In this document: piece after piece, positions 4,959 to 32,110 of the stretch | Position numbering within the stretch: position 1 is the stretch's first letter | Layout: each line of letters begins with the position of its first letter | Source: a bacterium | GTDB taxonomy: Bacteria; Verrucomicrobiota; Verrucomicrobiia; Verrucomicrobiales; Akkermansiaceae | NCBI GenBank assembly: GCA_018222765.1 | Contig: JAAEZT010000003.1 | Coordinates: 124,001-188,000, forward strand | Direction: 5' to 3' | Length of the DNA: 64,000 nt | Translations under genes and position numbers: made by a program | Notes under the pieces: generated by a model | The model's database searches: none | What the model saw: the letters and a program-made list of their open reading frames with translations, nothing else | What the model was told of the DNA's origin: nothing

Positions 4959-6155
4959 CTACTGCTCAACTCTGAAATAGACTCTCGAGACTCCTTCCAA
5001 GGCGGGAATCGAGGAGAGGTCAAATTCCTTGGTGGTGGTTTCACCATCGTCTCCAACAACACCGTCGTCCAGATCAGCACCCCAATCGATCATATCCAGC
5101 GAGTAGTATACGGAATAGATTCTTCCCGGATTCGAATTCCAGGTCAGCGCCAATTTGGAATCCGACGATAAGTCGATTTCGGTGATTGCTAAAATGGACG
5201 AAGCCCCAACGGTAATACTTCCATCACCTTCGATCCAAGCTTCCGTGTTGGTATAGGTCCCCGGAGTAACTTCGGTGTATGTTCCTGTCCCCTCCAGATC
5301 GATCCATAAGTTTCCCTCACCAACCTTTTCGTTAACGCCCGCATCGATATTAAGGATGCCTTTAGCGCCGATATAAAAAACCGTCGCATCATCATCGATC
5401 GCGCCTTCGCCACCCACCGTGTTCGCGGTAATTCGAAGCGAAGCAATTCCTCCGTTCGTCCCGGCACGTCCCTCGAGCGTCAACTCCGAGGCCTGACCGA
5501 AAGCTCCCACCTTGTCAGCAACCCAATAACACGGCTGCTCCTCGGGAGCTGCCTTGTTGTTGCTATTCCATAGCCGGATTGTCCCAGTAATTGTATTCGG
5601 TTCTGTTCCGGTAATGGTGATGAGTTCATCGGGGTCAACTCCATCGGAAAACCCGCCGTCTCGTGTCATCAGCAGGTCACCCTCACCACTGATCACACCA
5701 TCAATGGTTAGGCTCTGGTCACGCTCTTCGCGGATATGAAATGGGGCTGTGGAGGCCAGCAAAGTCAGGTCCCCGATGGTATTAGAGCCACCATGCTTGA
5801 AGACGATATCCTGATTACCCGTGCCTGTCCCGGTAACCCCGGCGACAGTCCCAATGGTATTACCTGCATTCGTGAGTCTACTTGAACCGCCCAAGTTGGC
5901 CGTTCTATCTATCGCAAATGTGTCCGTGCCATCCGGATAGCCATTACTCCCATCATCAACTCCGCTCTCCAACTTCCAATTGCCGGGAATTGTCCAAAGT
6001 TGCTGGTGACCCTGTCCATCGGGACCATCAACGGACAAATCGTCCATCAGGAAGGTGAAATGTCCTCCCAGCGCGGTCTGGAAAATGAGAGCACAAAGCG
6101 AGCACGCGATCGCGCGACCGATTGATGAGTTTTTGATTTTGGCTGTAGAATTCAT
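4959..6155 (-). CDS. Secreted beta-rich protein with shared C-terminal module
   Basis: About 398 residues from the Met beginning MNSTAKIKNSS; an ATG 27 bases upstream (6182) would add nine residues. A signal peptide (CSLCALIFQTALGG) is followed by Gly/Thr/Asn-rich sequence with repeated ITITGT- and GDLTLLAS-type strands, reminiscent of autotransporter-associated beta-strand repeats, including LTIDGVISGEGDLLMT. The last 75 or so residues, beginning LAITEIDLSSDSKLALTW and ending VYFRVEQ, match the C-termini of two other proteins in this window (16508-17323 and 30437-32017). The fold is likely a right-handed beta-helix with a C-terminal domain that may serve sorting or anchoring. I cannot assign a function. 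It converges with the papain-like gene and diverges from the DUF1549 gene at 6395. Confidence 0.8.
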   Translation of the reverse strand: MNSTAKIKNSSIGRAIACSLCALIFQTALGGHFTFLMDDLSVDGPDGQGHQQLWTIPGNWKLESGVDDGSNGYPDGTDTFAIDRTANLGGSSRLTNAGNTIGTVAGVTGTGTGNQDIVFKHGGSNTIGDLTLLASTAPFHIREERDQSLTIDGVISGEGDLLMTRDGGFSDGVDPDELITITGTEPNTITGTIRLWNSNNKAAPEEQPCYWVADKVGAFGQASELTLEGRAGTNGGIASLRITANTVGGEGAIDDDATVFYIGAKGILNIDAGVNEKVGEGNLWIDLEGTGTYTEVTPGTYTNTEAWIEGDGSITVGASSILAITEIDLSSDSKLALTWNSNPGRIYSVYYSLDMIDWGADLDDGVVGDDGETTTKEFDLSSIPALEGVSRVYFRVEQ

Positions 6156-6394
6156 CTCGTTATTTTCTGCTAACTGCTTCATCGGGTGAAACCGAATGTC
6201 ATTTGAATAGACCGAAAAAGCAAGCCCGACAATGATCGTAGCGTGACTCTGCCTCGATATAAGTCACCTTAACTTTCTTGCAAAGATGCCCTTCCAAATC
6301 GAAAACGTCATCAAAGATCACGATCGCAAGCAGACGCCCTGGTCACCAAAACCTGACACGAGAAAAATTCTTTTAAGAGCTTCGTCATCCATTC

Positions 6395-10416: not shown

Positions 10417-13400
10417 ATGACTATTTCCGGCCGTTTGTTCATCTCCGCTTTCACCACGCTCATCGCACTGCTGTCCCCAACCGTTCAGGCCGGCACCCTG
10501 ACTTTGGGGTCCCGGGTCCTGGTGACAGAGAACAACGCGAAATTCAATATTTCGGTGTTCGACGGGGCGGCAGGCTATGACAATGCCGGCACTCTCACCA
10601 CCAATCCTCCCTATACCACCGGAACATTTGGTGATGGCACGGTGGTCGACTACAATCTCTTCCACAGCCCCAACGACACGATCGTCAGCTATGCCAGCGG
10701 AGGGGCCAGTCTGATTAGCAACGGCACCTCAGCTGCAGGAAACATCAACGGTTCGGGGTCGGACTGGACGAACCTCTGGACCGACAGCGATCCAGGGGGC
10801 GACTTGACCGCACCAAGCAACCCGAAGGACTTCACCAACGGTTCGGTGCCCAGAACCTTCGCCCGGACGGCGAACATTACCGGCACAATTGACATCTCCG
10901 GTCTCACATCGGGAGAGGTCTACATCCCGCATGGGACCTACATCAACAACTGGACGCTCACCCTCACCATGACCGGCCCCGGACAGCCAACTCTGGCGGC
11001 CACCGACACCCAGAGTGGCAATGGCTCGAGCACGAACTTCGGATGGATCACCGACTTCGCCTTCACCGACGCCTCTCTCTACGACACCATCACTTATACC
11101 TACACTAACTCCGACTCCGACGGATCCCGCGCCCGTTTTATGGGCGTCATTCTCGACGGCACCGCCACCGTCTTTGCTCCGCCTACCGTCATTAATTCCG
11201 CCGCTTCCAACATCATCTCCTCCGGTGCAACCCTCAACGGCGAAGTCACCAACACCGGCGGTCAAAGCCCGGACGCCATCCTCTACTGGGGTGACAACGA
11301 CGGTGGCACCACTCCCGGAAATTGGGACAATGCCATCCCACTCGGAGCGAAGGGCAGCACCTTCTCAGCCAACATCAGCGGCCTGAGTATCACCACCACC
11401 TACTACTTCCGCGCATTCGCCAGCAACAGCGCCGGGGACGACTGGGCCGATACCACGTCCTCCTTCGTCACCGCGGCTGCCCCCAATCCCCCGGAGGTCA
11501 CCAACAACCCGGCCACCAGCATCACCTTCACCGCCGCCGACCTCAATGGCACCATCACCAACACCGGAGGAGAGTCCCCTGACGTGACGATCTACTACGG
11601 CGACAACGACGGCGGGACCACTCCCGGAAGCTGGGACAACTCAGTCGTCATTGGTCCCGAGTCCGGCGCCTTCAGCACTTCCGTTTTTGCCCTCACCCAC
11701 GACACGACTTACTTCTACCGCGCCTTTGCCGAAAACCCCGGCGGAACCGATTGGGCACCCTCCACCGCCAACTTCACCACCCTCGCGTTCTCTCTGCCAA
11801 GCCTCACCAACACCGCCGCCACCGACATTTCGGGCATTTCAGCGCAGGTCGGCGGAGACGTCACTGACACCGGCGACGACGACCCGGTCGTGACCATTTA
11901 CTATGGTGACAACGACGGCGGCACCAACGCGGGAAGCTGGGACGATTCGATCTCGCTCGGCAACCAGAGCGGAAATTTTTCGACCTACCTCACCGAACTC
12001 AGCCCGAACACCACCTACTACTTCCGCGCCAGCGGCCAGAACGGAGCCGGCACCGCCTGGGCCGGTTCCTCTCTCAGCTTCACCACCACCAATTTCGGCG
12101 ACGTGGTCATCAACGAGTTCATGGCTGCCAATGATGCCGGCACCAAAAACAACCCCAACGGCTGGTATCCCATCTCAAACCAAGTCCCGGGCACCAGCGA
12201 CGACTGGATCGAAATCCTCAACCTCAGCGGCGGCACCATCAACCTCGACGGCTGGCACCTCACCGACAATACGGGAAACCTCACCAAGTGGACCTTCCCG
12301 TCAGGAACCTCCCTCGACGGCGGAAGCTTTCTCCTCGTCTACGCCTCGGGCGACGGCACTCCCGATGCAAATGGCAACCTCCATACCAGCTTCTCCCTCT
12401 CCAAGGGCGGGGAATACCTCGCACTCGTCCGCCCCGACCTCACGATCGCCAGCGAATTCGGTCCCAACGGCACCGACTACCCTGGGCAGGACGACGACTT
12501 TTCCTACGGCATCCATCCCCTCAATACCGAATCCGTTTACTTCTCTTCTCCCACTCCCGGGACTACCAACGACCAGAACGGCATCGCCCGGGTCGAAGAC
12601 ACCAAGTTCTCCCCCGACCGCGGCTACTACCAGAACAATGTCGACGTCACCATCACCACCGTCACTCCGGGTGCCACCATCTATTACACCACCGACGGCA
12701 CCTCTCCGGTCAATGCCGTCGGGAGTCCCACTGGTTCCGCCACCGTCTACAGCGGCCTCATTACTCTCACCCAGACCACGCCTCTCCGTGCCGCCGCCGT
12801 GAAGAGTGGTCTCGCCCCCACCAACATCGATACCCATTCCTACTTCATTCTCGATATCGACGGCGCCGCCGCTGACGGCACCGACCCGGGTGGCTTCAAC
12901 ACCTCCTTCATCGAAGGATCCGGCATGGATACCGAGGTCTCAAAAGCAACCGCGACCGCCACCGGCCACACCACCTCCACCGCGCAAACGATGCTCCTAG
13001 GCCTCCGCGATATTCCCACCGTCTCAATCGCCAAGGACGGCGGTGGAATTGGCTCTGGTGAGCAGGCCTGTTCGGCGGAATTCATCCCCATCAACGGCGA
13101 CCCCCGCGAAGATTGGCAGATCAACTGCGGTGCCAGAATCTTTGGCGGAGCCAGCCGAAGCCAAAGCCCAAAAAAATCCATCAAACTGAGCTTCAGCAGC
13201 ACCTATGGCCCAGGAAAACTCCGTAAAGCCATCTTCCCCGGCTCCGAAGTCGAGGAGTTCAACTCCCTCGCCTTCCGCGGCGGATACAACAATTCCTGGA
13301 TTCACTGGGGTGGCGATCAACGGGACCGTGGCTCCATGATCCGTGACCAATGGATGCGCCAGACCATGCTCGACATGGGCAACCCCGCCGCTGGTGAGGG

Positions 13401-16400
13401 CTTCATGGTCCACGTCTTCATCAACGGCAACTACTGGGGCGTCCACAACCTTTGCGAGCGCCCCGAATCCTCCCACTACGCGGCCTACAACGGCGGGGAC
13501 GAAGATGCCCTCGACGCCAACAATGGCGGAGCCCCGATCGATGGAAACTCGACGGCCTTCGATGCCATGAAGGCGCTCGTCAACAACACCTCCACCCCCG
13601 ACTACTGGACCAAGGTGCAGCAAGTGATCGATATCGACCAATACATCGATTACCAAATCATCAACAAGTTTGGTGGCAATGGCGACCTCAAGTCGAACGG
13701 CAACTGGCGTTCCGCAGGCGGCGGGCCGTTTCCCGGCGGCCAACCCGAACTCATGGCTCCCTGGCAGCTCTACTCGTGGGACGGGGAGCGCACTCTCGAA
13801 AGCCAAACCGCGGGCAACACCCCCCTCGACCCGTTTGGAGTGCGGGGCACCCTGCAGGGCAATGACGAATACAAAATGCGCTTCGCCGACCGCCTCCATC
13901 AATACTTCTTCAACAACGGTGCCCTCACTCCCGCTGCCACCAAGGCTCGCTGGATGAAGTATGCCGACGTCCTCGACCGCGCCATCATCGCCGAGTCCGC
14001 CCGCTGGGGAGACCACCGCCGCGCCGTCCCCTACACCCGAGACGTCGAGTGGCTGAACGAGCAAGCCCGCCTCTGCAACGACTACTTCCCGGTCCGCACC
14101 AACAATGTCTTCAACGCCTACGGTAGCCTCTACCCAAATACCGACGCCCCGATCTTCCAAGTCAACGGTTCCCCGCAACACGGCGGCGCCATCCCCGGCG
14201 GTGGAACGCTCACCATCACCGCCACCTCCGGCACCATCTATTACACCACCGACGGCAGCGATCCCCGCCTCGAAGGCGGCGCGATTAACTCCGGTTCCAC
14301 TACCGCCATTTCCTCCGGGTCGACCGTCAGCCTTGCCGCCAGCGGCCTCGTCCGCATGCGTGCTCTCAACGGCGGCGAATGGTCCGCCATTAGCGAAGCC
14401 ACCTTCTATGTGGAACGCCTCGCCGGCCCCGGTGACCTCGCCATCACCGAGATCCACTACAACCCCTACCGCGCCGACGCTTTCGAAAAAGTCGCCGGCG
14501 CCGGACTCACTGTTCCCCGTAGCTTCGACAACCCCGACGACTTCGAATTCATCGAGATTCACAACATCTCCGGCGAAGCTCTCAACCTCGATGGTGTGTA
14601 CTTCACAACCGGCATCGGATTTACTTTCGGACCCACCACCATCCCCGCCGGAGGTTATGTCGTCGTCGTTAAAGATCTTGAAGCCTTCAGTGTCCGCTAC
14701 CCCTCTGTCACTCCCGCCGGAGCCTTCTCGGGCAGCCTCGACAACGGCGGCGAAACCCTCGTCCTCCAGTCCGCGTCCGCGGGCCCCATTCTCACCTTCA
14801 ATTACGACGATTCCGGTCAATGGCCCGGGCGTGCCGATGGCAACGGATCGTCTCTTGAACTCATCAATACCGCCGGCAGCTACCTTGACTCGCAAAACTG
14901 GCGACCCAGCTCCGAGTTCAATGGCTCACCGGGAATCTCCGGCACCGGTCCGGACGGACGTATCGTCATCAACGAAGTCCTCTCCCACACCGACGCTCCC
15001 AGCATGGACACCATCGAGCTCTACAACCCAACCGGCAGCCCGGTCAACATCTCGGGTTGGATTCTTAGTGACGACAACAACGCCTATCCTTCCTTCTCCC
15101 TTCCTTCCACCACCGTGAACTCGGGAGACTACGTCACCTTCGACGAAGACGATTTTAACATCACTCCGACGGGCACGATCAGTGCCTACGCTGGCACCCC
15201 CGCCGCCTCTCCCACCACCGTGACGGCGCCCGGCCATGGCCTCTCTACCGGAAACACCATTACCATCGAGGGATACGGAGGAACCGGCGGATACAGCGAC
15301 ACCTTCGAGATCATTGTCACCGGAGCCAACACCTTCACGATCGATACTCCCTTCCTCGACAACGACTCGACGAAAGGCGATTGGATTTTTGGGCGTCCCT
15401 TCGGTCTCAGCTCGTCGCGCGGAGAAGATCTCTGGTTGCTCGAAACCGATCCCTCCGGGCGCCCCATCAAGTTCATCGACCGCGTCGATTTTGCCGCGGC
15501 TTTCAACGGGGAAGCCCTCGGCAGATGGCCCAACGGCTCCGGAACGGGAACACTTATCAGCATGGCATCCACTACCCTGGGCTTCGAAAACCTGGCTCCC
15601 AAAATCGGACCCGTCATCGTTTCCGAGGTCATGTACCACCCCGATGTCCCCACCGAGGACAACCTCGAGTTCGTGGAAATCTGCAACACCGGAACGATCA
15701 CCGAAAACCTCGACCACTGGCGCCTCCGCGGGGGAACCGATTTCGACTTCACCTCCGCCCATAGCCTCGCCCCCGGCGGACTACTTGTCATCGTCGCCTT
15801 CGACCCGGTTGCCGAACCCGCCGTAGCCGCCGCCTTCCGCGCGGAATACGGGATCGACGGCACCATTCCCTTGGTCGGCCCCTTCACCGACGGCCCCCTC
15901 GACAACGCCAGCGGCACCGTCAGATTGCAACGCCCCGATTCCCCGCCGGCCGGTGAGCCGACCTTCTACCCTCAGGTCACCGAGGACGAGGTCATCTACC
16001 AAAGCCTCGCGCCCTGGCCACTCGGCGCCGGCGGCAATGGCGATTCCCTCAACCGCCTCGGGCCTTCCTCTTTCGGCAATTTCGCCGGCAGCTGGATCGA
16101 CAACTTCCCAAGCCCGGGTGGGAAATTCCTGAACTACGAATCCTGGAGCACGGCCTGGGGAGTGGGCGGCGAATTGCTCGACCCCGACCTCGATGGCATC
16201 GTCAACCTCATCGAGTTTGCTCTGGGGCTAAACCCTACTGTTAGCAACCTCAACGCCACCGCAAATCCGGTCGTGGAAGGAGGTAACTTAACCCTGACCT
16301 TCACCAGGAATCTCCTCCTCTCCGGGGTCACTTCCGTTGTCCAATCTTCCCCTGATCTGGAAAATTGGACCGACGTTCCCGACTCCCTCGTCTCCTCCTC

Positions 16401-16479
16401 CAACTTCAATGAGGTCCGCAAGGCCAGCGTCACCATGGTCCCCAAAGACCTCTACCTCCGGCTTAAGATCACCCAATGA
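10417..16479 (+). CDS. Giant secreted CotH / lamin-tail domain protein
   Basis: A 2020-residue secreted protein with a signal peptide ending near VQAG. From N to C: a beta-rich region to about 250; three repeats of about 100 residues (254-557) each with a WGDNDGG or YGDNDGG motif; a lamin-tail domain (about 561-720, VVINEFMAANDAG); a chitobiase-C-terminal-like domain (about 729-810, TIYYTTDGTSP); a CotH kinase-like domain (about 865-1228, with FNSLAFRGGYNNSW and HVFINGNYWGVHNL); a second chitobiase-like domain (TIYYTTDGSDPR); and three more lamin-tail domains (LAITEIHYNP, IVINEVLSH, VIVSEVMYHP). The end holds DPDLDGIVNLIEFALGLNP, a calcium-loop-like segment common near C-termini in Verrucomicrobiota. 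CotH of Bacillus is an atypical protein kinase; activity here is unproven. It is a single-gene unit. Confidence 0.9.
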   Translation: MTISGRLFISAFTTLIALLSPTVQAGTLTLGSRVLVTENNAKFNISVFDGAAGYDNAGTLTTNPPYTTGTFGDGTVVDYNLFHSPNDTIVSYASGGASLISNGTSAAGNINGSGSDWTNLWTDSDPGGDLTAPSNPKDFTNGSVPRTFARTANITGTIDISGLTSGEVYIPHGTYINNWTLTLTMTGPGQPTLAATDTQSGNGSSTNFGWITDFAFTDASLYDTITYTYTNSDSDGSRARFMGVILDGTATVFAPPTVINSAASNIISSGATLNGEVTNTGGQSPDAILYWGDNDGGTTPGNWDNAIPLGAKGSTFSANISGLSITTTYYFRAFASNSAGDDWADTTSSFVTAAAPNPPEVTNNPATSITFTAADLNGTITNTGGESPDVTIYYGDNDGGTTPGSWDNSVVIGPESGAFSTSVFALTHDTTYFYRAFAENPGGTDWAPSTANFTTLAFSLPSLTNTAATDISGISAQVGGDVTDTGDDDPVVTIYYGDNDGGTNAGSWDDSISLGNQSGNFSTYLTELSPNTTYYFRASGQNGAGTAWAGSSLSFTTTNFGDVVINEFMAANDAGTKNNPNGWYPISNQVPGTSDDWIEILNLSGGTINLDGWHLTDNTGNLTKWTFPSGTSLDGGSFLLVYASGDGTPDANGNLHTSFSLSKGGEYLALVRPDLTIASEFGPNGTDYPGQDDDFSYGIHPLNTESVYFSSPTPGTTNDQNGIARVEDTKFSPDRGYYQNNVDVTITTVTPGATIYYTTDGTSPVNAVGSPTGSATVYSGLITLTQTTPLRAAAVKSGLAPTNIDTHSYFILDIDGAAADGTDPGGFNTSFIEGSGMDTEVSKATATATGHTTSTAQTMLLGLRDIPTVSIAKDGGGIGSGEQACSAEFIPINGDPREDWQINCGARIFGGASRSQSPKKSIKLSFSSTYGPGKLRKAIFPGSEVEEFNSLAFRGGYNNSWIHWGGDQRDRGSMIRDQWMRQTMLDMGNPAAGEGFMVHVFINGNYWGVHNLCERPESSHYAAYNGGDEDALDANNGGAPIDGNSTAFDAMKALVNNTSTPDYWTKVQQVIDIDQYIDYQIINKFGGNGDLKSNGNWRSAGGGPFPGGQPELMAPWQLYSWDGERTLESQTAGNTPLDPFGVRGTLQGNDEYKMRFADRLHQYFFNNGALTPAATKARWMKYADVLDRAIIAESARWGDHRRAVPYTRDVEWLNEQARLCNDYFPVRTNNVFNAYGSLYPNTDAPIFQVNGSPQHGGAIPGGGTLTITATSGTIYYTTDGSDPRLEGGAINSGSTTAISSGSTVSLAASGLVRMRALNGGEWSAISEATFYVERLAGPGDLAITEIHYNPYRADAFEKVAGAGLTVPRSFDNPDDFEFIEIHNISGEALNLDGVYFTTGIGFTFGPTTIPAGGYVVVVKDLEAFSVRYPSVTPAGAFSGSLDNGGETLVLQSASAGPILTFNYDDSGQWPGRADGNGSSLELINTAGSYLDSQNWRPSSEFNGSPGISGTGPDGRIVINEVLSHTDAPSMDTIELYNPTGSPVNISGWILSDDNNAYPSFSLPSTTVNSGDYVTFDEDDFNITPTGTISAYAGTPAASPTTVTAPGHGLSTGNTITIEGYGGTGGYSDTFEIIVTGANTFTIDTPFLDNDSTKGDWIFGRPFGLSSSRGEDLWLLETDPSGRPIKFIDRVDFAAAFNGEALGRWPNGSGTGTLISMASTTLGFENLAPKIGPVIVSEVMYHPDVPTEDNLEFVEICNTGTITENLDHWRLRGGTDFDFTSAHSLAPGGLLVIVAFDPVAEPAVAAAFRAEYGIDGTIPLVGPFTDGPLDNASGTVRLQRPDSPPAGEPTFYPQVTEDEVIYQSLAPWPLGAGGNGDSLNRLGPSSFGNFAGSWIDNFPSPGGKFLNYESWSTAWGVGGELLDPDLDGIVNLIEFALGLNPTVSNLNATANPVVEGGNLTLTFTRNLLLSGVTSVVQSSPDLENWTDVPDSLVSSSNFNEVRKASVTMVPKDLYLRLKITQ
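11177..12090 (+). repeat. Three tandem ~100-residue repeats inside the CotH protein gene
   Basis: Three consecutive coding repeats of roughly 305 bases. Each encodes a start like LTNTAATDISGISAQ or VINSAASNIISSGATL, then a GDNDGGTTPGNWDN-type core, then TTYYFRAFA. They look like fibronectin-type-III-like beta sandwiches, the sort of spacer found in long surface proteins. The copies are clearly related at protein level but diverged at DNA level. Confidence 0.8.
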
Positions 16480-16507: not shown

Positions 16508-17323
16508 CTACCCTTCCTCAATGCGAAAGAACAGAGCCTCCGCCTGAACGCCCAGAAGAGGGAAGGTCACGGTGATGTGCTCGGGGTCATCGGGATTCTC
16601 GTCACGTTCGTCTGTGATGCCGTCGTCCAAGTCCGCGTCCCAATCGATCATGTCGGACGAGTATCTTGCGATGTAGGCCGCGGCACCGGTCTTGCTCCAG
16701 GTCAGGGTCACCGCTGGATTCGGGGCGAGCGAGTAATCAATCGCGGTAATGACAAGAGGAGCAGAGGGTCCCGTATCCCGGAGCCCAGCTGTGACGATCA
16801 CTTGTCCGGCATCACCATCGACGTTCGTATTCTCAAGCCAGACAAGATTATCCCCCTGGGTCAGACCAAAATCAGCAAACGACAAGCCACTAAAGGTATG
16901 AGTTGAGGTAACTTCAATCACGTCTCCAGCTTCGATCTCATCATCCATGAGAACTTGTCCATTATTCTGCTGAAAACGAATCGAGTTGGTATTGGCTTCC
17001 CAGGAATCGATGGTCCCAAACAAGTCAGTAGTCGACGAAAACACCTCATTTTGGACCGTCAGGGTGAACGCATTCACTGGTGCAGCAACACCAGACCCAA
17101 GCTGGAATTGTTCGTTAACCGTATCCAATAAAGTCGCGCCTCCCAAAATGGCTCCCTTATTACTCTCGGTCAGACCGGTGAGATCAAGGGTTCCGGAAAC
17201 GTAAAGGATCACATCGCCATCAGCCTCGGTAAATTCCAGTAAGATCTCAGCGTCCGAGTCCTGAGAGAGATTGAAACCGAGTGCCAAGACAACAGTTGCC
17301 GCCTTAAGAGCTGTTTTCATCAT
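16508..17323 (-). CDS. Secreted protein with shared C-terminal module
   Basis: About 271 residues from the double ATG at 17323/17320, preceded by AGAAG. A signal peptide (KAATVVLALGFNLSQDSDA) is followed by beta-rich sequence (ILLEFTEADGDVILYVSG, VNAFTLTVQNEVFSSTTD) with no recognised enzymatic motif. The C-terminal 80 residues, from LVITAIDYSLAPNPAVTLTW to ALFFRIEEG, are clearly related to the ends of the proteins at 4959-6155 and 30437-32017, including the invariant DLDDGI core. The gene has a long, hairpin-rich leader (17324-17520). It converges with the CotH gene. Function unknown; the module suggests cell-surface sorting or attachment. Confidence 0.8.
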   Translation of the reverse strand: MMKTALKAATVVLALGFNLSQDSDAEILLEFTEADGDVILYVSGTLDLTGLTESNKGAILGGATLLDTVNEQFQLGSGVAAPVNAFTLTVQNEVFSSTTDLFGTIDSWEANTNSIRFQQNNGQVLMDDEIEAGDVIEVTSTHTFSGLSFADFGLTQGDNLVWLENTNVDGDAGQVIVTAGLRDTGPSAPLVITAIDYSLAPNPAVTLTWSKTGAAAYIARYSSDMIDWDADLDDGITDERDENPDDPEHITVTFPLLGVQAEALFFRIEEG

Positions 17324-17520
17324 GATCGTTTTTCTTCTTTTAGTGCAGCGGAGCATTCTTTCTGAGCTGCAGCGCATCCCCATAGTGATCACTAGTCCAA
17401 CAAGAGCAAGCTTGTGGTAGGCCCGGGATACTTTCCCTTCGCCTGGGTCGACTGTGAGGCGAAGCAGGCTGTATCTCCTGACTCACATGCCCGCGGGGCC
17501 AAGGTAACTTCTCTCCTCCC
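17324..17520 (-). promoter_or_regulatory. Hairpin-rich leader, candidate structured RNA or promoter region
   Basis: The 197 bases between the glycosyltransferase stop and the start of the secreted-protein gene hold several inverted repeats. One is CTTCGCCT (17437-17444) with AGGCGAAG (17457-17464), a perfect 8-bp stem. Others are ACAAG/CTTGT (17400-17415), TGCAGC/GCTGCA (17344-17371), the 12-bp palindrome TAGTGATCACTA (17383-17394) and GCCC/GGGC (17489-17499). On the minus strand AGTCAGGAGATAC precedes the large hairpin, recalling the CAGGAGA box near the end of cobalamin riboswitches, but the rest of that riboswitch is not seen. It could be a leader RNA, a terminator for the glycosyltransferase gene, or both. 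Confidence 0.4.
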
Positions 17521-26784: not shown

Positions 26785-27414
26785 TCAGTCCAATTGAATG
26801 ATTCCTTGTTTCACGGCGGCAGTCGCGGCTTGGGTCCGATCATTAACTCCGAGTTTGGTGAAGACGCGTTCGATATGATGCTTCACGGTGGACGTTGAAA
26901 TTCCAAGGTTCGCTACGATTTCCTTATTACTATAGCCAGAGACAATCTGAGCGAGGATTTGGGTCTCGCGCGGTGAGAGAGCCTCCTGTGCGCGTCGTTC
27001 GTCGAGCTTCTTTTCGAGACCTTCGGAATAGTAAGAAACTCCACTTGCTACTGCTCGCACCGCCGTGATGATCTCGTCAATCTCCCCACCCTTCGACACG
27101 CAACCCAGAGCGCCGGCTTCGGTCGCGCGCCACAGGCTCTCCGAGGTCTCATAAATCGACAACAAAACAATATGTGCCTCCGGGAATTCGGCGAGAATTT
27201 CGCCAATCGCTTCAGCACCGTTGAGCCCGGGCATTTGGTAGTCCATCGTCACGACGTCCGGCTGCAACTCGCGGTAAAGCGCGATGGCGCTGGCCCCGTT
27301 TTCAGCCTCGCCGACGAGTTCGAGGTCGTCTTGCTGTGCGAGAGCTTCAGCGAGAGCGAGACGGACCATGGCATGGTCATCGACAATGAGAACTCTGGTC
27401 TTGGGAATCATCAA
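26785..27414 (-). CDS. NarL/FixJ-type response regulator
   Basis: 209 residues: a receiver domain (about 5-125) with the acidic pair in VLIVDDHAMVR, phospho-acceptor Asp58 in VVTMDYQMPG and the conserved Lys in CVSKGGEID, then a LuxR-type helix-turn-helix (about 145-205, LSPRETQILAQIVSGYSNKE, STVKHHIERVFTKLGV). It is the cognate partner of the histidine kinase upstream: its start overlaps the kinase stop by 4 bases (27411-27414). Targets are not shown by the sequence. The neighbouring paralogous secreted-protein genes, with a shared palindrome upstream of each, are candidates. Confidence 0.93.
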   Translation of the reverse strand: MMIPKTRVLIVDDHAMVRLALAEALAQQDDLELVGEAENGASAIALYRELQPDVVTMDYQMPGLNGAEAIGEILAEFPEAHIVLLSIYETSESLWRATEAGALGCVSKGGEIDEIITAVRAVASGVSYYSEGLEKKLDERRAQEALSPRETQILAQIVSGYSNKEIVANLGISTSTVKHHIERVFTKLGVNDRTQAATAAVKQGIIQLD

Positions 27415-29459
27415 TTTTTGGTTGATTGGTTTGCTGGCGATGCTGAGGGAAGTCGGAGTTGAACTTTGGTGCCGAGAGAGGGTGAACTTTCGATTCCCAG
27501 TTCGGCAAAGATCTTGTTGGCACGCTCGCGCATACCCGTGATTCCAAAATGCCCGGCGGGTGGCCGCTGTTTGGGATCGAAACCAGAGCCATCATCGATG
27601 ATCTCGAGCCTGATTTCATCGGTTTCATAATGTAAACTAACTTCAATCCAGGTTGGCTTCGCGTGACGTCTGGCATTGATCACCGCCTCACGCGCAATCC
27701 TCACGAGATGATTTGTGGTGGTCGCGGGGAGTTTGCGTGGTGTCCCTTCAACGATGAATCGGAACTCGGCTCCTTCGGCCACAGCCGGGAGAATCTCTTG
27801 TATCGCTTCCGGGAGACTCTTCTTCAAAAGAGAGGGACTTCGAAGATCGCTGATCGAGGCGCGAGTTTCGGCTCGGCAATGCTTCAACATATTCCGTGCG
27901 AGTATCAGGCGGTTCTGTGCCTTTTCGCGATCGTCAAGTGAGGTGGTTAGATTCCCCAGTTGCATCGACAGGCCTGTAAGCTCTTGTTCCAGAGTATCGT
28001 GCAGCTCCCTCGCAATACGTTGCCGCTCGTCCTTCACAAGGCCTTGTTTAACCTGATTGCGAATTGTTGTTGCCTGGGCGGCGACCCGTTTGCGCAGCAA
28101 CCAGTTCCATGCGAAAATGGCGATTAAAATAGCCCCAAGGATCGCCAAGGCAGCTTGCACTCGTTCGGGCGTCCACCACGGAGTGGAGCGCAACACTTCG
28201 ATACTGGCATTACCGGACAGGTCGAGACGGAAACCATCGGCCCACTTTGTCCGCGGCATCGGTCGGGTCGTCGTCACAGTGTAAATTCCAGTCAGGCGTA
28301 TCTGGTCGCCCGCTTGCAAATTGCGTTCTTGTAAGGTTGAGCGGGGCGACCTTGCCAGGAAGTAACTCGAGCCAGCCCGGCATTGCAGGACGACTTCCTC
28401 AAGGCCCTCTCGATAGGCTAGAAATTCGCACTCGGTCACAACCCGCTCGGCGTGAAGATCAAACCGGGGGCCACCGGCTGGGTCGAATGAAGAGGGCGGT
28501 GGTCGCTCGCCTTTTCCTAACAAAAGAACACGCGCTGCCCGCATGGTCGGGCGGAACGGAGCCACCACGGCGAAACCCTGCACCTCGACTTCGCTGCCCG
28601 GCGGATAGGTGGTCCCCATTGCTGATTGGACGAAGGTGCTCCCGGTTTCATCGCGGAGAAAAAACCCCTCTTGGCCAAGCTGGGTGATCACTCCGCGGAC
28701 TCTCACCTTGTCTTTCCGCTCGTGGTCACTCTGTAGCAGACGAGTGATCGTGCGCGATGATATCTTGCCCGGTTCCGGATTTCCTTCAATCGGGATCAAC
28801 TGCTCGAACGAAGGCACGAAGAAGTAGCGGTCGGTCAATTGCCTTTCCCTACTAGTGATGCTGCCGACGATGCCACGTAAGAGAACTCGTTTTTGCATCA
28901 AGGTCTCCGCCTGGACCGCCGCATCGACGACTTTTGGTAACTCGGCCAGGAAGGTCAGGCCATCGATCTCGACCACCAGGGTAAAGCCTAGTCCACCGGG
29001 TATCACTCCGACGACCAGAGCTTCCACCTCGATCCAATCGGAGTCGATGCTGTTAGCAAATAATTCCTTGGCCGTGACACGCCGCGGTTCGGGAAGTTTC
29101 CCTTGATGTAAGATTTCCAACTTGGCTTCGACAATATCGGGAAAGTAGGAAGCTCCTCTAGTGACACCGCGCACGCGAAGTCTCGTGCCAGGTCGAATTT
29201 TGTCCCGTTCGGGAAATGGTAGGGAGGCGGCGATATGGCAACCGGCCGTCCCGTCGTGCAGGATGAGCCCTTCTGCCTTGTCGAGATTGTCGCTGCGTTT
29301 TTGGAAGAAGATGACCGTGCCCTCGATCAGCACCGGGTATCGCTGGGACTCTGCGGCCTCGTGCGGCACCTCGCGCACCTCGGCGAGCGTTGTTAACGGA
29401 GGTCCCTGCGCCGCTGCCCAAAGCGGAAACAGGAAAAGGATGAGGACACGTAATGGCAT
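27411..29459 (-). CDS. NarX/DesK-type sensor histidine kinase with OB-like sensor region
   Basis: About 682 residues from the ATG at 29459, which has GGAAAG just upstream; another ATG at 29471 would add four residues. A signal sequence (LRVLILFLFPLWAAAQG) is followed by some 410 residues outside the membrane, with repeats of the form RLRVRGVTRGASYFPDI and KVRVRGVITQLGQEGFFLRD that resemble OB-fold domains. One membrane segment lies at about 435-457. Then comes a HisKA_3 dimerisation domain with His487 in DERQRIARELHDTLEQE, and a HATPase domain with REAVINARRHAK (N box), IIDDGSGFDP and GHFGITGMRERA. It phosphorylates the regulator encoded next to it. The ligand is unknown. Confidence 0.92.
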   Translation of the reverse strand: MPLRVLILFLFPLWAAAQGPPLTTLAEVREVPHEAAESQRYPVLIEGTVIFFQKRSDNLDKAEGLILHDGTAGCHIAASLPFPERDKIRPGTRLRVRGVTRGASYFPDIVEAKLEILHQGKLPEPRRVTAKELFANSIDSDWIEVEALVVGVIPGGLGFTLVVEIDGLTFLAELPKVVDAAVQAETLMQKRVLLRGIVGSITSRERQLTDRYFFVPSFEQLIPIEGNPEPGKISSRTITRLLQSDHERKDKVRVRGVITQLGQEGFFLRDETGSTFVQSAMGTTYPPGSEVEVQGFAVVAPFRPTMRAARVLLLGKGERPPPSSFDPAGGPRFDLHAERVVTECEFLAYREGLEEVVLQCRAGSSYFLARSPRSTLQERNLQAGDQIRLTGIYTVTTTRPMPRTKWADGFRLDLSGNASIEVLRSTPWWTPERVQAALAILGAILIAIFAWNWLLRKRVAAQATTIRNQVKQGLVKDERQRIARELHDTLEQELTGLSMQLGNLTTSLDDREKAQNRLILARNMLKHCRAETRASISDLRSPSLLKKSLPEAIQEILPAVAEGAEFRFIVEGTPRKLPATTTNHLVRIAREAVINARRHAKPTWIEVSLHYETDEIRLEIIDDGSGFDPKQRPPAGHFGITGMRERANKIFAELGIESSPSLGTKVQLRLPSASPANQSTKN

Positions 29460-29552
29460 GTGTCTTTCCATACCATTACAGGGTGCTGCCAGAAAGGGGC
29501 ATCTCGCCAGGTCGCGTCATCGTCAGGCGCTACCTAGCGAGTATCATCAACC

Positions 29553-30308
29553 CTATTTCCGCTGGCGTCTCGTCAGTGCGAGCGCACCCAAGCAAAGCAA
29601 GATCCCTGAGGAAGGCTCTGGAATTGAAGCAACCGTTCCGTTGAGCGCCAAGCCATCAATATTGTGGAGTGAGTTCAAGGCTCCACTGTTGACGTTGATG
29701 GTGAAGGTTTTGCTTTCACCCGCTCCGATCACCACAGGCGCATTCAAGGCCACGGTAATAAGAGGATTACCAGAATTCAGAGTACCCCCTGCGCCCTGTG
29801 CAGCTCCCGCCTCCTGAATCTGCCAAATACTGGCCCCTCCACTGGTAAAATCAATCGTTAGGCTGTCCACCGTAACACTGGTGACCGCATCTGCTCCAAT
29901 CGTAAACGCGATCGGGGCATTTCCATTTGAGGAAAGATCGGCTCCCGTACCTTGGGCCGATCCTTGTCCCCATGAAGTGTAATCAGAAACTGTCGGTCTG
30001 GGACTAGGGACTGCCGAGCCGTCGAAATAGTTGGCCCGGTGAAGGAAGATCACTTGGTCGCCTGAGTTTCCGCCGAAGCCAAAGCCATCGTGAACATCGT
30101 TGGGGACCGCACCCGGGCCGACATCGGTAAAGGAGCTGTTAAATGACAGTCCGGAGATCGTCGCTCCGGCGGGCACGCCACTGGAGGCGAGACGCGCGGT
30201 AGAGTTCGCTCCGGCGTTGAATGTCCATTCCGCAATAACTGCAGCGTTGAGTAACGCAGTGCTCGACACAGCGAAAATTATGAAGGAAAGAGGGTGTGCT
30301 TTGTTCAT
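29553..30308 (-). CDS. PEP-CTERM secreted protein, paralogue of the next gene
   Basis: 251 residues from the ATG at 30308, which places a signal peptide (LSFIIFAVSSTALLNAAV) at the N-terminus; Met codons further upstream are possible. One copy of a roughly 200-residue domain begins IAEWTFNAGANSTARLA and contains GPGAVPNDVHDGFGFGGN and NSGALNSLHNIDGLALNG. The C-terminus is a PEP-CTERM sorting signal: IPEPSSG, a hydrophobic stretch, then RRQRK. Such proteins are cleaved by an exosortase, which is not encoded in this window. The same domain occurs twice in the protein encoded at 30437-32017, where the PEP-CTERM tail is replaced by a different C-terminal module. Function unknown. Confidence 0.85.
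   Translation of the reverse strand: MNKAHPLSFIIFAVSSTALLNAAVIAEWTFNAGANSTARLASSGVPAGATISGLSFNSSFTDVGPGAVPNDVHDGFGFGGNSGDQVIFLHRANYFDGSAVPSPRPTVSDYTSWGQGSAQGTGADLSSNGNAPIAFTIGADAVTSVTVDSLTIDFTSGGASIWQIQEAGAAQGAGGTLNSGNPLITVALNAPVVIGAGESKTFTINVNSGALNSLHNIDGLALNGTVASIPEPSSGILLCLGALALTRRQRK
29674..29825. repeat. 152-bp near-identical repeat, copy 1
   Basis: Inside the PEP-CTERM gene. By eye it matches 30757-30908 at about 146 of 152 positions in direct orientation, far closer than the rest of the paralogous domains. It encodes the segment around VALNAPVVIGAGESKTFTIN. This suggests recent duplication or gene conversion between the two genes. Confidence 0.85.
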
Positions 30309-30392
30309 TTGATTGAGGGTTGTGGGGTTGGAATTAGACATGAAGTTCAAACCCATTCCCTTCGAATTCTCGTAAATTTGATGACTCTTGTC

Positions 30393-30416
30393 GACTCGGC
30401 CATTTGGCCGGGTGAC
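30393..30416. promoter_or_regulatory. Conserved palindrome upstream of the PEP-CTERM gene
   Basis: GACTCGGCCATTTGGCCGGG holds the inverted repeat CGGCCATTTGGCCG (30397-30410), and GTGAC follows. It lies about 85-110 bases upstream of the start at 30308. Read on the minus strand it is GTCACCCGGCCAAATGGCCG followed by AGTC, nearly the same as the element at 32086-32110. Probably an operator or part of a shared promoter. Confidence 0.5.
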
Positions 30417-30436
30417 TTTGTCTGAGATGATCGTCA

Positions 30437-32017
30437 TTACTCCTCGGTCTCGATACGGAAGAACATCTTAGGCGCATCCATCTGGACAGGAGGCAAGGGA
30501 AGTGTCAGGGTGATCTGGGTTGGGTCTTCGGGGTTTTCGTCCCGGGCGGCGGTAATGCCGTCATCCAGATCCCCCTCCCAGCCGGTCATGTCGAGCGAGT
30601 ATTTGGCGACATAAGAGGTGGCCAGAGTTTTCCGCCAAGTCAGGGTCACGGTATTAGCGTCAAGGGTATAATCAATCTCAGTGATCGCGAGTTCGATGGG
30701 GTTCGAAGGAGCTCTGAAGCCGTTGAGCGTTAAGCCGTCGATATTATGAAGTGAATTCAAGGCTCCGCTGTTGACGTTGATGGTGAAGGTTTTGCTTTCA
30801 CCCGCTCCGATCAACACGGGAGTATTCAAGGCCACGGTAATAAGAGGGTTACCAGAATTCAGAGTACCCCCTGCGCCCTGTGCAGCTCCCGCCTCCTGAA
30901 TCTGCCAGATGCAGGCGCCTCCGCTGGTGAAATCAACCGTCAAGCTGTCTACCGTAATGATGCTGAGTTCGTCCGCCTCAACCGTAAACGAGATGGCCGC
31001 ATTGCCATTTGAGGCAAGATCGGCTCCCGTCCCTTGGGCCGATCCTTGTCCCCATGAGGTGTAATCATCCAAGGTCGGGCGCGGATTTGGGACATCCGAA
31101 CCGTCGAAGTAGGTGGCCCGATGGAGAAAGATCACGCGATCACCTGAGTTCCCGCCGAAGCCGAAGCCATCGTGAACATCGTTGGGCACGGCCCCGGGAC
31201 CGAAATCAGTGAATGAAGCGTTGAACGACAATCCGGAAATGGTGGCGCCCTCGACGACACCACTGGGCGCAAGAAGCTCAACGGAGGTGGCACCCGAATT
31301 AAAAGTCCACTCGGCCAGAGGAGGACGCTCCTCCCGCTCCACGCTCCCATTAAGTAAAATGCCATCGATGTTGTGCAATGAATTCAGCGCGCCACTGTTG
31401 ATGTTGATGGTGAAAGTCTTGGTTTCACCCGGCCCAACAACCACCGGAGCATCCAAGGGAACATCGAGGACTGGGTTGGCACCATTTAAGGTGACTGTGG
31501 CACCGCTCGTGCTTCCGGCTTCCTGAAACCCGAAAATGATTCCGCCACCGCTGGTGAAATCTACGGTGATGCTTTCGATCGTAACGGTCGAGATGGCATC
31601 ACCCGTTACCGTGAACGCGATCGGAGCATTGCCGTTTGTGCCCACATCGGCACTAGTGCCTTGGGAGGATCCGAGCCCCCATGAGGTGTAATCATCCAAG
31701 GTTGGCCGGGGCGCGGGAACTTCAGAGGCATCGAAATATTCCGCCCGGTGAAGGAAGATTACCTGATCACCCCGATTCCCTCCAAAGCCAAAGCCATCGT
31801 GGACATCGTTGGGAACTGCTCCTGGACCGAAATCAGTAAAGGACTGGTTCAACAACAGCCCGGAAACCAAGGCTCCGGCGGCAACGCTGCCCGATGCGAG
31901 CCGGTCAACCGAAGTCGGGCCAGTATTAAAGGTCCACTCAGCAAGGACCTCGGCATTTATCGAGGAGATCGGCAAAATGGTCAAAAGACCCGCCATCAGA
32001 AATTTTTTCGGTTTCAT
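30437..32017 (-). CDS. Secreted protein with two tandem domains and the shared C-terminal module
   Basis: 526 residues from the ATG at 32017 (MKPKKFLMAGLLTILPISS is the signal peptide); a TTG 12 bases upstream is an alternative. Two copies of the domain found in the PEP-CTERM neighbour follow one another (about 22-225 and 230-432), each starting AEWTFN and containing GPGAVPNDVHDGFGFGGN and NSGALNSLHNIDG. The last 85 residues, from LAITEIDYTLDANTVTLTW to MFFRIETEE, form the module shared with the proteins at 4959 and 16508. The gene stops 128 bases before the start of the PEP-CTERM gene on the same strand. Function unknown. The repeat of an entire domain and the exchange of C-terminal tails suggest modular evolution of surface proteins. 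Confidence 0.85.
   Translation of the reverse strand: MKPKKFLMAGLLTILPISSINAEVLAEWTFNTGPTSVDRLASGSVAAGALVSGLLLNQSFTDFGPGAVPNDVHDGFGFGGNRGDQVIFLHRAEYFDASEVPAPRPTLDDYTSWGLGSSQGTSADVGTNGNAPIAFTVTGDAISTVTIESITVDFTSGGGIIFGFQEAGSTSGATVTLNGANPVLDVPLDAPVVVGPGETKTFTININSGALNSLHNIDGILLNGSVEREERPPLAEWTFNSGATSVELLAPSGVVEGATISGLSFNASFTDFGPGAVPNDVHDGFGFGGNSGDRVIFLHRATYFDGSDVPNPRPTLDDYTSWGQGSAQGTGADLASNGNAAISFTVEADELSIITVDSLTVDFTSGGACIWQIQEAGAAQGAGGTLNSGNPLITVALNTPVLIGAGESKTFTINVNSGALNSLHNIDGLTLNGFRAPSNPIELAITEIDYTLDANTVTLTWRKTLATSYVAKYSLDMTGWEGDLDDGITAARDENPEDPTQITLTLPLPPVQMDAPKMFFRIETEE
30757..30908. repeat. 152-bp near-identical repeat, copy 2
   Basis: The partner of 29674-29825, in the second domain copy of the gene at 30437-32017. 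By eye only about six positions differ. The first domain copy of the same gene (around 31365-31540) is clearly more diverged, so the close pair joins two different genes rather than the tandem copies. Confidence 0.85.
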
Positions 32018-32085: not shown

Positions 32086-32110
32086 GTCACCTCGGCCAAT
32101 TGGCCGACTC
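32086..32110. promoter_or_regulatory. Conserved palindrome upstream of the two-domain gene
   Basis: GTCACC followed by TCGGCCAATTGGCCGA, a perfect 16-bp palindrome at 32092-32107, then CTC. It lies about 70-95 bases upstream of the start at 32017. It matches the element at 30393-30416 almost base for base, apart from one central position and one spacer base. The rest of the 281-base intergenic region (32018-32298) shows no further gene. Confidence 0.5.

Follow-up and report, generated by a model that had tools for sequence, protein, structure and literature searches.

Neighbouring paralogues that carry one passenger domain with either a PEP-CTERM signal or a recurrent C-terminal module in an Akkermansiaceae genome

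We analysed a stretch of 64,000 nucleotides (hereafter the window) of contig JAAEZT010000003.1 from an Akkermansiaceae bacterium (assembly GCA_018222765.1, 4.33 Mb in 87 contigs, G000 in our genome set), in which two paralogous genes encode proteins of 251 and 526 residues with a common passenger domain and different C-terminal tails (Table 1). The original prediction, made from the sequence alone, was that the shorter protein combines one copy of this domain with a PEP-CTERM sorting signal and that the longer one has two copies and a module instead of that signal, and both statements are confirmed. Indeed, the tail of the 251-residue protein scores above the cut-offs of Pfam PF07589 (23.5 bits for a cut-off of 20.7) and of NCBIfam TIGR02595 (24 bits for 16), and the genome encodes one exosortase (PF09721, 139.3 bits for a cut-off of 25.7). 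The 526-residue protein gave no PEP-CTERM match at E ≤ 1 in the Pfam and NCBIfam scans, in which no family was found either for the 86-residue module at its C terminus, and its two passenger copies align with the single copy of the 251-residue protein at 69% and 82% identity. Both proteins begin with a signal-peptide-like stretch, as read off the sequence. Longer starts, giving 294 and 530 residues, respectively, were preferred by the list of open reading frames (ORFs); the shorter ones are favoured, though unproven, because a shared palindrome lies at similar distances upstream of them.

This swapped-tail pair is more than a chance arrangement, since it recurs at 15 PEP-CTERM genes of the same genome and, with the window's passenger, in Verrucomicrobiaceae bacterium E54, a member of another family; passengers are thus found under either tail beyond the window. 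A census of the window's own genome recovered the module in 64 ORFs and gave 40 PEP-CTERM hits, 35 of the latter above the Pfam cut-off. The presence of both tails in one protein, which the original prediction had singled out as contrary to it, was seen in 0 of the 64 module ORFs, 0 of the 40 PEP-CTERM ORFs and 0 of the 41 module ORFs from loci fetched in other genomes. Passengers were compared with their tails cut off, a homologue being defined by E ≤ 1e-5 and passengers shorter than 60 residues (5 of 40 PEP-CTERM and 2 of 64 module ORFs) being left out, so that 97 were compared. Of the 35 usable PEP-CTERM passengers, 24 have a homologue among these 97, and in 17 cases the top-scoring homologue bears the module. 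Furthermore, a module-tailed homologue lies within 7 kb for 15 of the 35, the gene distance being less than 2 kb for eleven; four of these 15 PEP-CTERM hits are just under the Pfam cut-off (17.7–20.0 bits) and still show the PEP motif, the hydrophobic stretch and the basic end. Homologous neighbours are cross-tail in 12 of 15 pairs below 2 kb (mean of label shuffles 7.0, p = 0.006) and in 16 of 20 below 7 kb (mean 9.3, p = 0.0014). A PEP-CTERM gene and a module gene are found less than 2 kb apart 16 times, versus about 4.1 expected under uniform placement, which ignores regional clustering, and same-tail gene pairs within this distance number 8. This census replaces an earlier cross-tail count (17 of 35 module proteins), whose set had partly been picked around PEP-CTERM genes and also held one false PEP-CTERM match, a simple text pattern on the opposite strand that is absent from the census.

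Examination of the junctions indicates where the passengers part from their tails. In seven clean swaps (the window pair, C24, C34, C58:31116, C83, C15:133712 and C26:176302), homology stops 1–6 residues before the PEP-CTERM signal and 5–15 residues before the module; in the other pairs, the module-tailed gene carries extra stretches, such as Big_1/invasin, Laminin_G or Ig-like domains. At the window locus, the PEP-tailed copy and copy 2 of the longer gene agree at 56, 55 and 55 of 60 nucleotides in the three complete blocks closest to the tail, beyond which the identity drops. In a tree of 12 passenger copies, a single clade of PEP-tailed copies was rejected (approximately unbiased test, p = 0.013), two tail changes being needed; this tree is moderate evidence, because E54 adds long branches. 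With passengers common to both tails at many loci, no ORF bearing both and a single PEP-CTERM clade rejected, the interchange of tails put forward in the original prediction is well supported by the sequences.

Table 1. Features of the gene pair and further module copies (window coordinates)
Feature	Position	Strand	Remarks
251-residue gene	29553..30308	-	ATG at 30308, stop ends at 29553; signal-peptide-like start, one passenger copy, PEP-CTERM
PEP-CTERM sorting signal of the 251-residue protein, IPEPSSGILLCLGALALTRRQRK	29556..29627	-	Pfam and NCBIfam models
Single passenger copy of the 251-residue protein	29631..30242	-	jelly-roll, like a carbohydrate-binding module (CBM) in the predicted model
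526-residue gene	30437..32017	-	ATG at 32017, stop ends at 30437; signal-peptide-like start, two passenger copies, C-terminal module
Passenger copy 1 of the 526-residue protein	31337..31951	-	contig 155337-155951
Passenger copy 2 of the 526-residue protein	30719..31321	-	the nearer of the two copies to the PEP-tailed one
C-terminal ("shared") module of the 526-residue protein	30440..30697	-	86 residues
Module copy	4962..5192	-	C terminus of a 407-residue protein (4959-6182)
Module copy	about 16511..16756	-	C terminus of a 294-residue protein (16508-17392)
Palindrome CGGCCAATTGGCCG	32093..32106		about 76 bp upstream of the 526-residue start
Palindrome CGGCCATTTGGCCG	30397..30410		about 89 bp upstream of the 251-residue start

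The window holds two copies of the palindrome CGGCCAWTTGGCCG, one ahead of each gene of the pair, and the two genes may be co-regulated because it is common to both. A search of 587,659 bases of the same genome with the pattern CGGCCANNTGGCCG, at most one mismatch being allowed, gave seven sites, and the only complete ones are those two; likewise, only 2 of 1966 unrelated PEP-module combinations reach the upstream score of the window pair. A promoter element common to all pairs was also considered and rejected, as such an element is found only in the window pair and one other of the 14 tested. Beside the 251-residue gene and on its strand, a sensor kinase (HisKA_3, 686 residues) and a LuxR/NarL-like response regulator are encoded at 26785-29471 (-), starting about 80 bp past its stop. 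This gene order is kept in an Akkermansiaceae metagenome-assembled genome (MAG) contig, L058, which is very similar to the window, and the two-component pair is a candidate regulator acting on the palindrome.

Outside the window's family, the window passenger is present in three nearby genes of E54 (locus L059). A 276-residue protein has a PEP-CTERM end, as judged by eye, a 1387-residue protein has a C terminus matching the module profile (E 6.7e-5), and a 606-residue protein has two copies and a different C-terminal region. When two mismatches are allowed, E54 shows a complete palindrome upstream of its PEP-CTERM gene and a two-mismatch copy inside a gene, and a one-mismatch site (L059 212) lies upstream of the gene for the 606-residue protein. 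The palindrome CGGCCAWWTGGCCG is thus located ahead of both PEP-tailed and module-tailed passenger genes, and E54 has it as well (L059 212 and 2845). An Opitutia MAG (L060) has two passenger copies in a protein of 1118 residues, the end of which is only weakly module-like (E 0.77). In the comparison of other genomes, PEP-CTERM genes were taken from the fetched stretches only, and eight of the 41 module ORFs were left out (five with a non-terminal module and three without a passenger).

The module itself is an uncurated domain of about 78 residues, whose best-conserved columns are aromatic (W, Y, W and a closing [FY][FY]R[VI]). A profile built from 28 copies matches 64 times in the window's own genome, once in each of 64 ORFs, and the match ends at most 7 residues from the stop in 57 of these and at most 27 in 60. 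In the three that end 11–27 residues before the stop, the profile match stops early and an aromatic-Tyr-Arg motif is still near the stop, in one of them as Ser-Tyr-Arg; one further copy sits at a contig edge. In the loci of other genomes, 36 of 41 module ORFs have the module ending at most 8 residues from the stop; 23 of these 41 ORFs come from 20 fetched stretches of genome G033, whose scan gave 36 profile matches. Two of the G033 ORFs (L082) overlap on opposite strands, and one of these two is therefore probably spurious. According to a crude rule applied without a control, signal-peptide-like N termini are found in 46 of 56 module ORFs and 33 of 36 PEP-CTERM ORFs. The module is present in 33 of 38 genomes, the window's own included; in 24 genomes of its genus, some of which are incomplete, the copy number ranges from 7 to 88. 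In a sample of the phylum, at least 46 of 144 genomes, again with the own one, have a match, mostly at low scores, large genomes having been scored in part. Despite the many copies in the window's genus, another genus of its family, g14, which may be Akkermansia, gave no match in any of its 15 listed genomes; as the profile is tuned to the window's genus, absence elsewhere is weak evidence.

Several further module-like occurrences were noted. A 2020-residue protein with CotH and lamin-tail domains, encoded at 10417-16479 (+) of the window, has a C terminus that is related to the module only distantly and weakly (E 0.0091). At four loci (L090, L091, L092 and L106), the module is internal and precedes a sialate O-acetylesterase-like domain, SASA being confirmed by Pfam for L106 only. 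At L101 and L103, a module-like domain comes after a region named YHYH-like from the reading of its sequence, and does so twice in L101. A viral origin of the module was rejected, since none of the 13 pattern matches obtained in viral_contigs with one module sequence as query is a relative.

We tentatively favour, with a confidence somewhat short of even, an explanation in which the PEP-tailed form of each pair is processed by the exosortase, the module-tailed form is exosortase-independent and the module acts as a C-terminal targeting or retention domain. It starts from the common passengers, the mutually exclusive tails, the position of the junctions, the enrichment among neighbours, the exosortase and the palindrome of the window locus. 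A secreted, carbohydrate-binding-like passenger would have been duplicated, and recombination at the domain boundary would have placed PEP-CTERM on one copy and the C-terminal beta-sandwich module on the other. The PEP-tailed form, as an exosortase substrate, would probably come to be attached to the envelope or to exopolysaccharide; the module-tailed form, devoid of the exosortase signal, would leave by another route, its module playing a role like that of a type IX secretion system (T9SS) C-terminal domain without being a member of that group. Both forms would be made together and reach separate destinations, one binding domain being displayed in two places. Carbohydrate binding by the passenger, a domain of about 205 residues, is a guess, because its predicted model (pLDDT, predicted local distance difference test, 77, poor in about residues 71–108) has nothing at E ≤ 0.001 in Foldseek, where the best-ranked entries, from E 1.1e-3 upwards, are a mixture of Cry-toxin domains and CBM6, CBM35 and CBM4-type carbohydrate-binding jelly-rolls, and because the hit of its sequence profile to a xylanase module of CBM4 type is weak (E 0.14).

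A number of observations weigh against this explanation. No secretion or anchoring machine was identified for the module. The excess of cross-tail pairs belongs to neighbours, because it is not significant over all reciprocal best passenger pairs (15 of 27 cross-tail, shuffled mean 12.6, p = 0.22), and a recognisable shared upstream element is missing from 12 of the 14 tested pairs. The window passenger is rare, being found in 2 of 58 related genomes (the own one and one congener) and at three loci in genome_contigs, one of them almost identical to the window. For other passengers, the fetched loci yielded two neighbouring cross-tail pairs in G033, a weak one (28% identity) in G031 and none in G048, and the pairing is therefore best shown in the window's own genome. 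Finally, the module is not always terminal. It is internal in 3 of the 64 proteins of the own genome, where it precedes an esterase (PF03629 with a Big_5 domain), a putative sulfatase-like region identified by reading the sequence and a 741-residue region with no Pfam match at E ≤ 0.01, respectively. Elsewhere it is non-terminal in 3 of 9 module ORFs of G031, the three proteins having it ahead of an esterase-like region, in 1 of 8 of G048 and in 1 of 23 of G033.

These internal copies, ahead of enzymes, bring up a distinct possibility, namely that we are dealing with an ordinary domain of Fn3-like type, structural or ligand-binding in role, that the module-tailed copies are secreted without an anchor and that the C-terminal bias stems from accretion of domains at the 3' end. 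The structural prediction agrees with it: the model built from seven sequences (pLDDT 75.6; predicted template modelling score 0.59) has six strands in a predicted beta-sandwich, with no transmembrane or basic segment, and the strongly conserved columns, mostly hydrophobic or aromatic, resemble a fold core. No Foldseek match at E ≤ 0.001 was obtained for this model; with VIA-align the matches are middling, none stands out, and the top solved folds are mixed, with FlgD at Z 5.5, an arabinoxylanase module at Z 5.3 and many fibronectin domains at Z 4–5. PorU is matched at its C-terminal end, and carbohydrate-binding and further folds are also represented. Identity with a known domain was rejected on the sequences of the 28 members: the strongest Pfam hit is to SusE, in a single member (E 0.0015), any one Pfam family is matched by at most three members (F5_F8_type_C and fn3_SORL1, the latter with a best E of 0.078), and the best NCBIfam and Protein Data Bank sequence matches have E 0.085 and E 0.038, respectively. 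What speaks against an ordinary domain is the occurrence of a single module per ORF (64 in 64), at the stop in 57 of 64. Single, stop-adjacent copies would generally be unusual in a plain Fn3 or carbohydrate-binding domain. As far as the sequence goes, the module may sort the protein, anchor it or only cap it: its C-terminal position points to targeting, its internal copies and its fold to an ordinary domain.

A neutral origin of the pairs, through tandem duplication and 3'-end gene conversion and with no function in having both tails at one locus, is rather improbable. The mosaic identity at the window junction would be in line with such a history, as would the fast turnover of PEP-CTERM paralogues and the homologous pairs with one member devoid of PEP-CTERM described in passages of PMC1569441. 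However, same-tail neighbouring homologues, the default product of duplication, are the rarer kind (3 of 15). Moreover, several passengers show this arrangement, and in E54 it comes with a conserved palindrome. That the module is a genuine T9SS C-terminal domain in an organism with this system is very improbable, for despite its similar size, C-terminal position and predicted beta-fold, and a match to PorU residues 1057-1141 (Z 4.5, root-mean-square deviation 3.2, 75 aligned residues) with which many unrelated folds tie, none of the 28 members matches a Pfam or NCBIfam T9SS C-terminal family model at E ≤ 1. A search for SprA_N gave no candidate in the own genome, but control genomes gave no match either.

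The original prediction had gone further and taken the module for an alternative to exosortase-dependent sorting. This part finds no support in a predicted beta-sandwich without transmembrane or basic segment, internal in 3 of 64 proteins, whose numbers rise with those of PEP-CTERM. Over 38 genomes, the own one counted, module, PEP-CTERM and exosortase are found together in 30 and none of the three in 3; PEP-CTERM and exosortase occur without the module in 2, module and exosortase without PEP-CTERM in 1, and module and PEP-CTERM without exosortase in 2, these being 77% and 80% complete. The correlation between the counts of module and PEP-CTERM is positive (rho 0.61), but genome size, which both follow within the genus, is a confounder. 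Replacement between genomes, in which module-rich genomes would lose PEP-CTERM, is unsupported by these counts, and their joint rise fits joint use better than replacement, despite the effect of genome size. Likewise, the neighbouring pairs suggest that both forms are used together and not one instead of the other. A broader proposal, that the module marks an undescribed outer-membrane export or surface-retention route of Verrucomicrobiota beside the exosortase, with matched gene pairs delivering one binding domain by both, seems to us unlikely, if conceivable.

Whatever the role of the module, natural pairs that differ mainly in their tail amount to built-in controlled experiments, with a common passenger, a common genome and often adjacent positions, and allow a direct test of what PEP-CTERM contributes and of whether the module is a sorting signal. 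They bear on where PEP-CTERM proteins are finally located and on whether Verrucomicrobiota have a further C-terminal sorting route.

Among known systems, the C-terminal domains of T9SS substrates (Por secretion tail) are beta-sandwiches of about 80 residues, borne at the C terminus of many unrelated passengers and devoid of a transmembrane helix. The module resembles them in size, terminal position, predicted beta-sandwich, variety of passengers and lack of a transmembrane helix, and differs from them by having no sequence match to their families and by its internal copies. That proteins may have a choice of tail is reportedly already known from the work of Haft. PEP-CTERM is described as an exchangeable suffix in parts of PMC1569441 and PMC3237569, as is GlyGly-CTERM in the latter, and passages of PMC1569441 report fast paralogue turnover in PEP-CTERM families and homologous pairs with one member lacking the signal. 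The 251-residue protein belongs to the PEP-CTERM/exosortase (EpsH) system by model score, in a genome with one exosortase; here, by contrast, the PEP-less homologue often adjoins in the same genome and bears another recurrent tail family. Our literature search, with subscription journals mostly outside its reach, found no account of such pairs or of the module among the papers listed, and the opposite-tailed neighbours within one genome, together with a recurrent, uncurated second tail family, look new. The closest parallel for one passenger with several tails is provided by the vault-like proteins, which according to sections of PMC3237569 end in GlyGly-CTERM, LPXTG or PEP-CTERM, and by the NCBIfam "choice-of-anchor" families, one model of which matched below its own cut-off in the scan of the window proteins; in drawing this parallel, we assume that the module is a sorting tail. 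While the vault-like proteins were compared between species and carry known sorting tags, the two forms found here share one genome, often as neighbours, and one of them bears a tail without known machinery.

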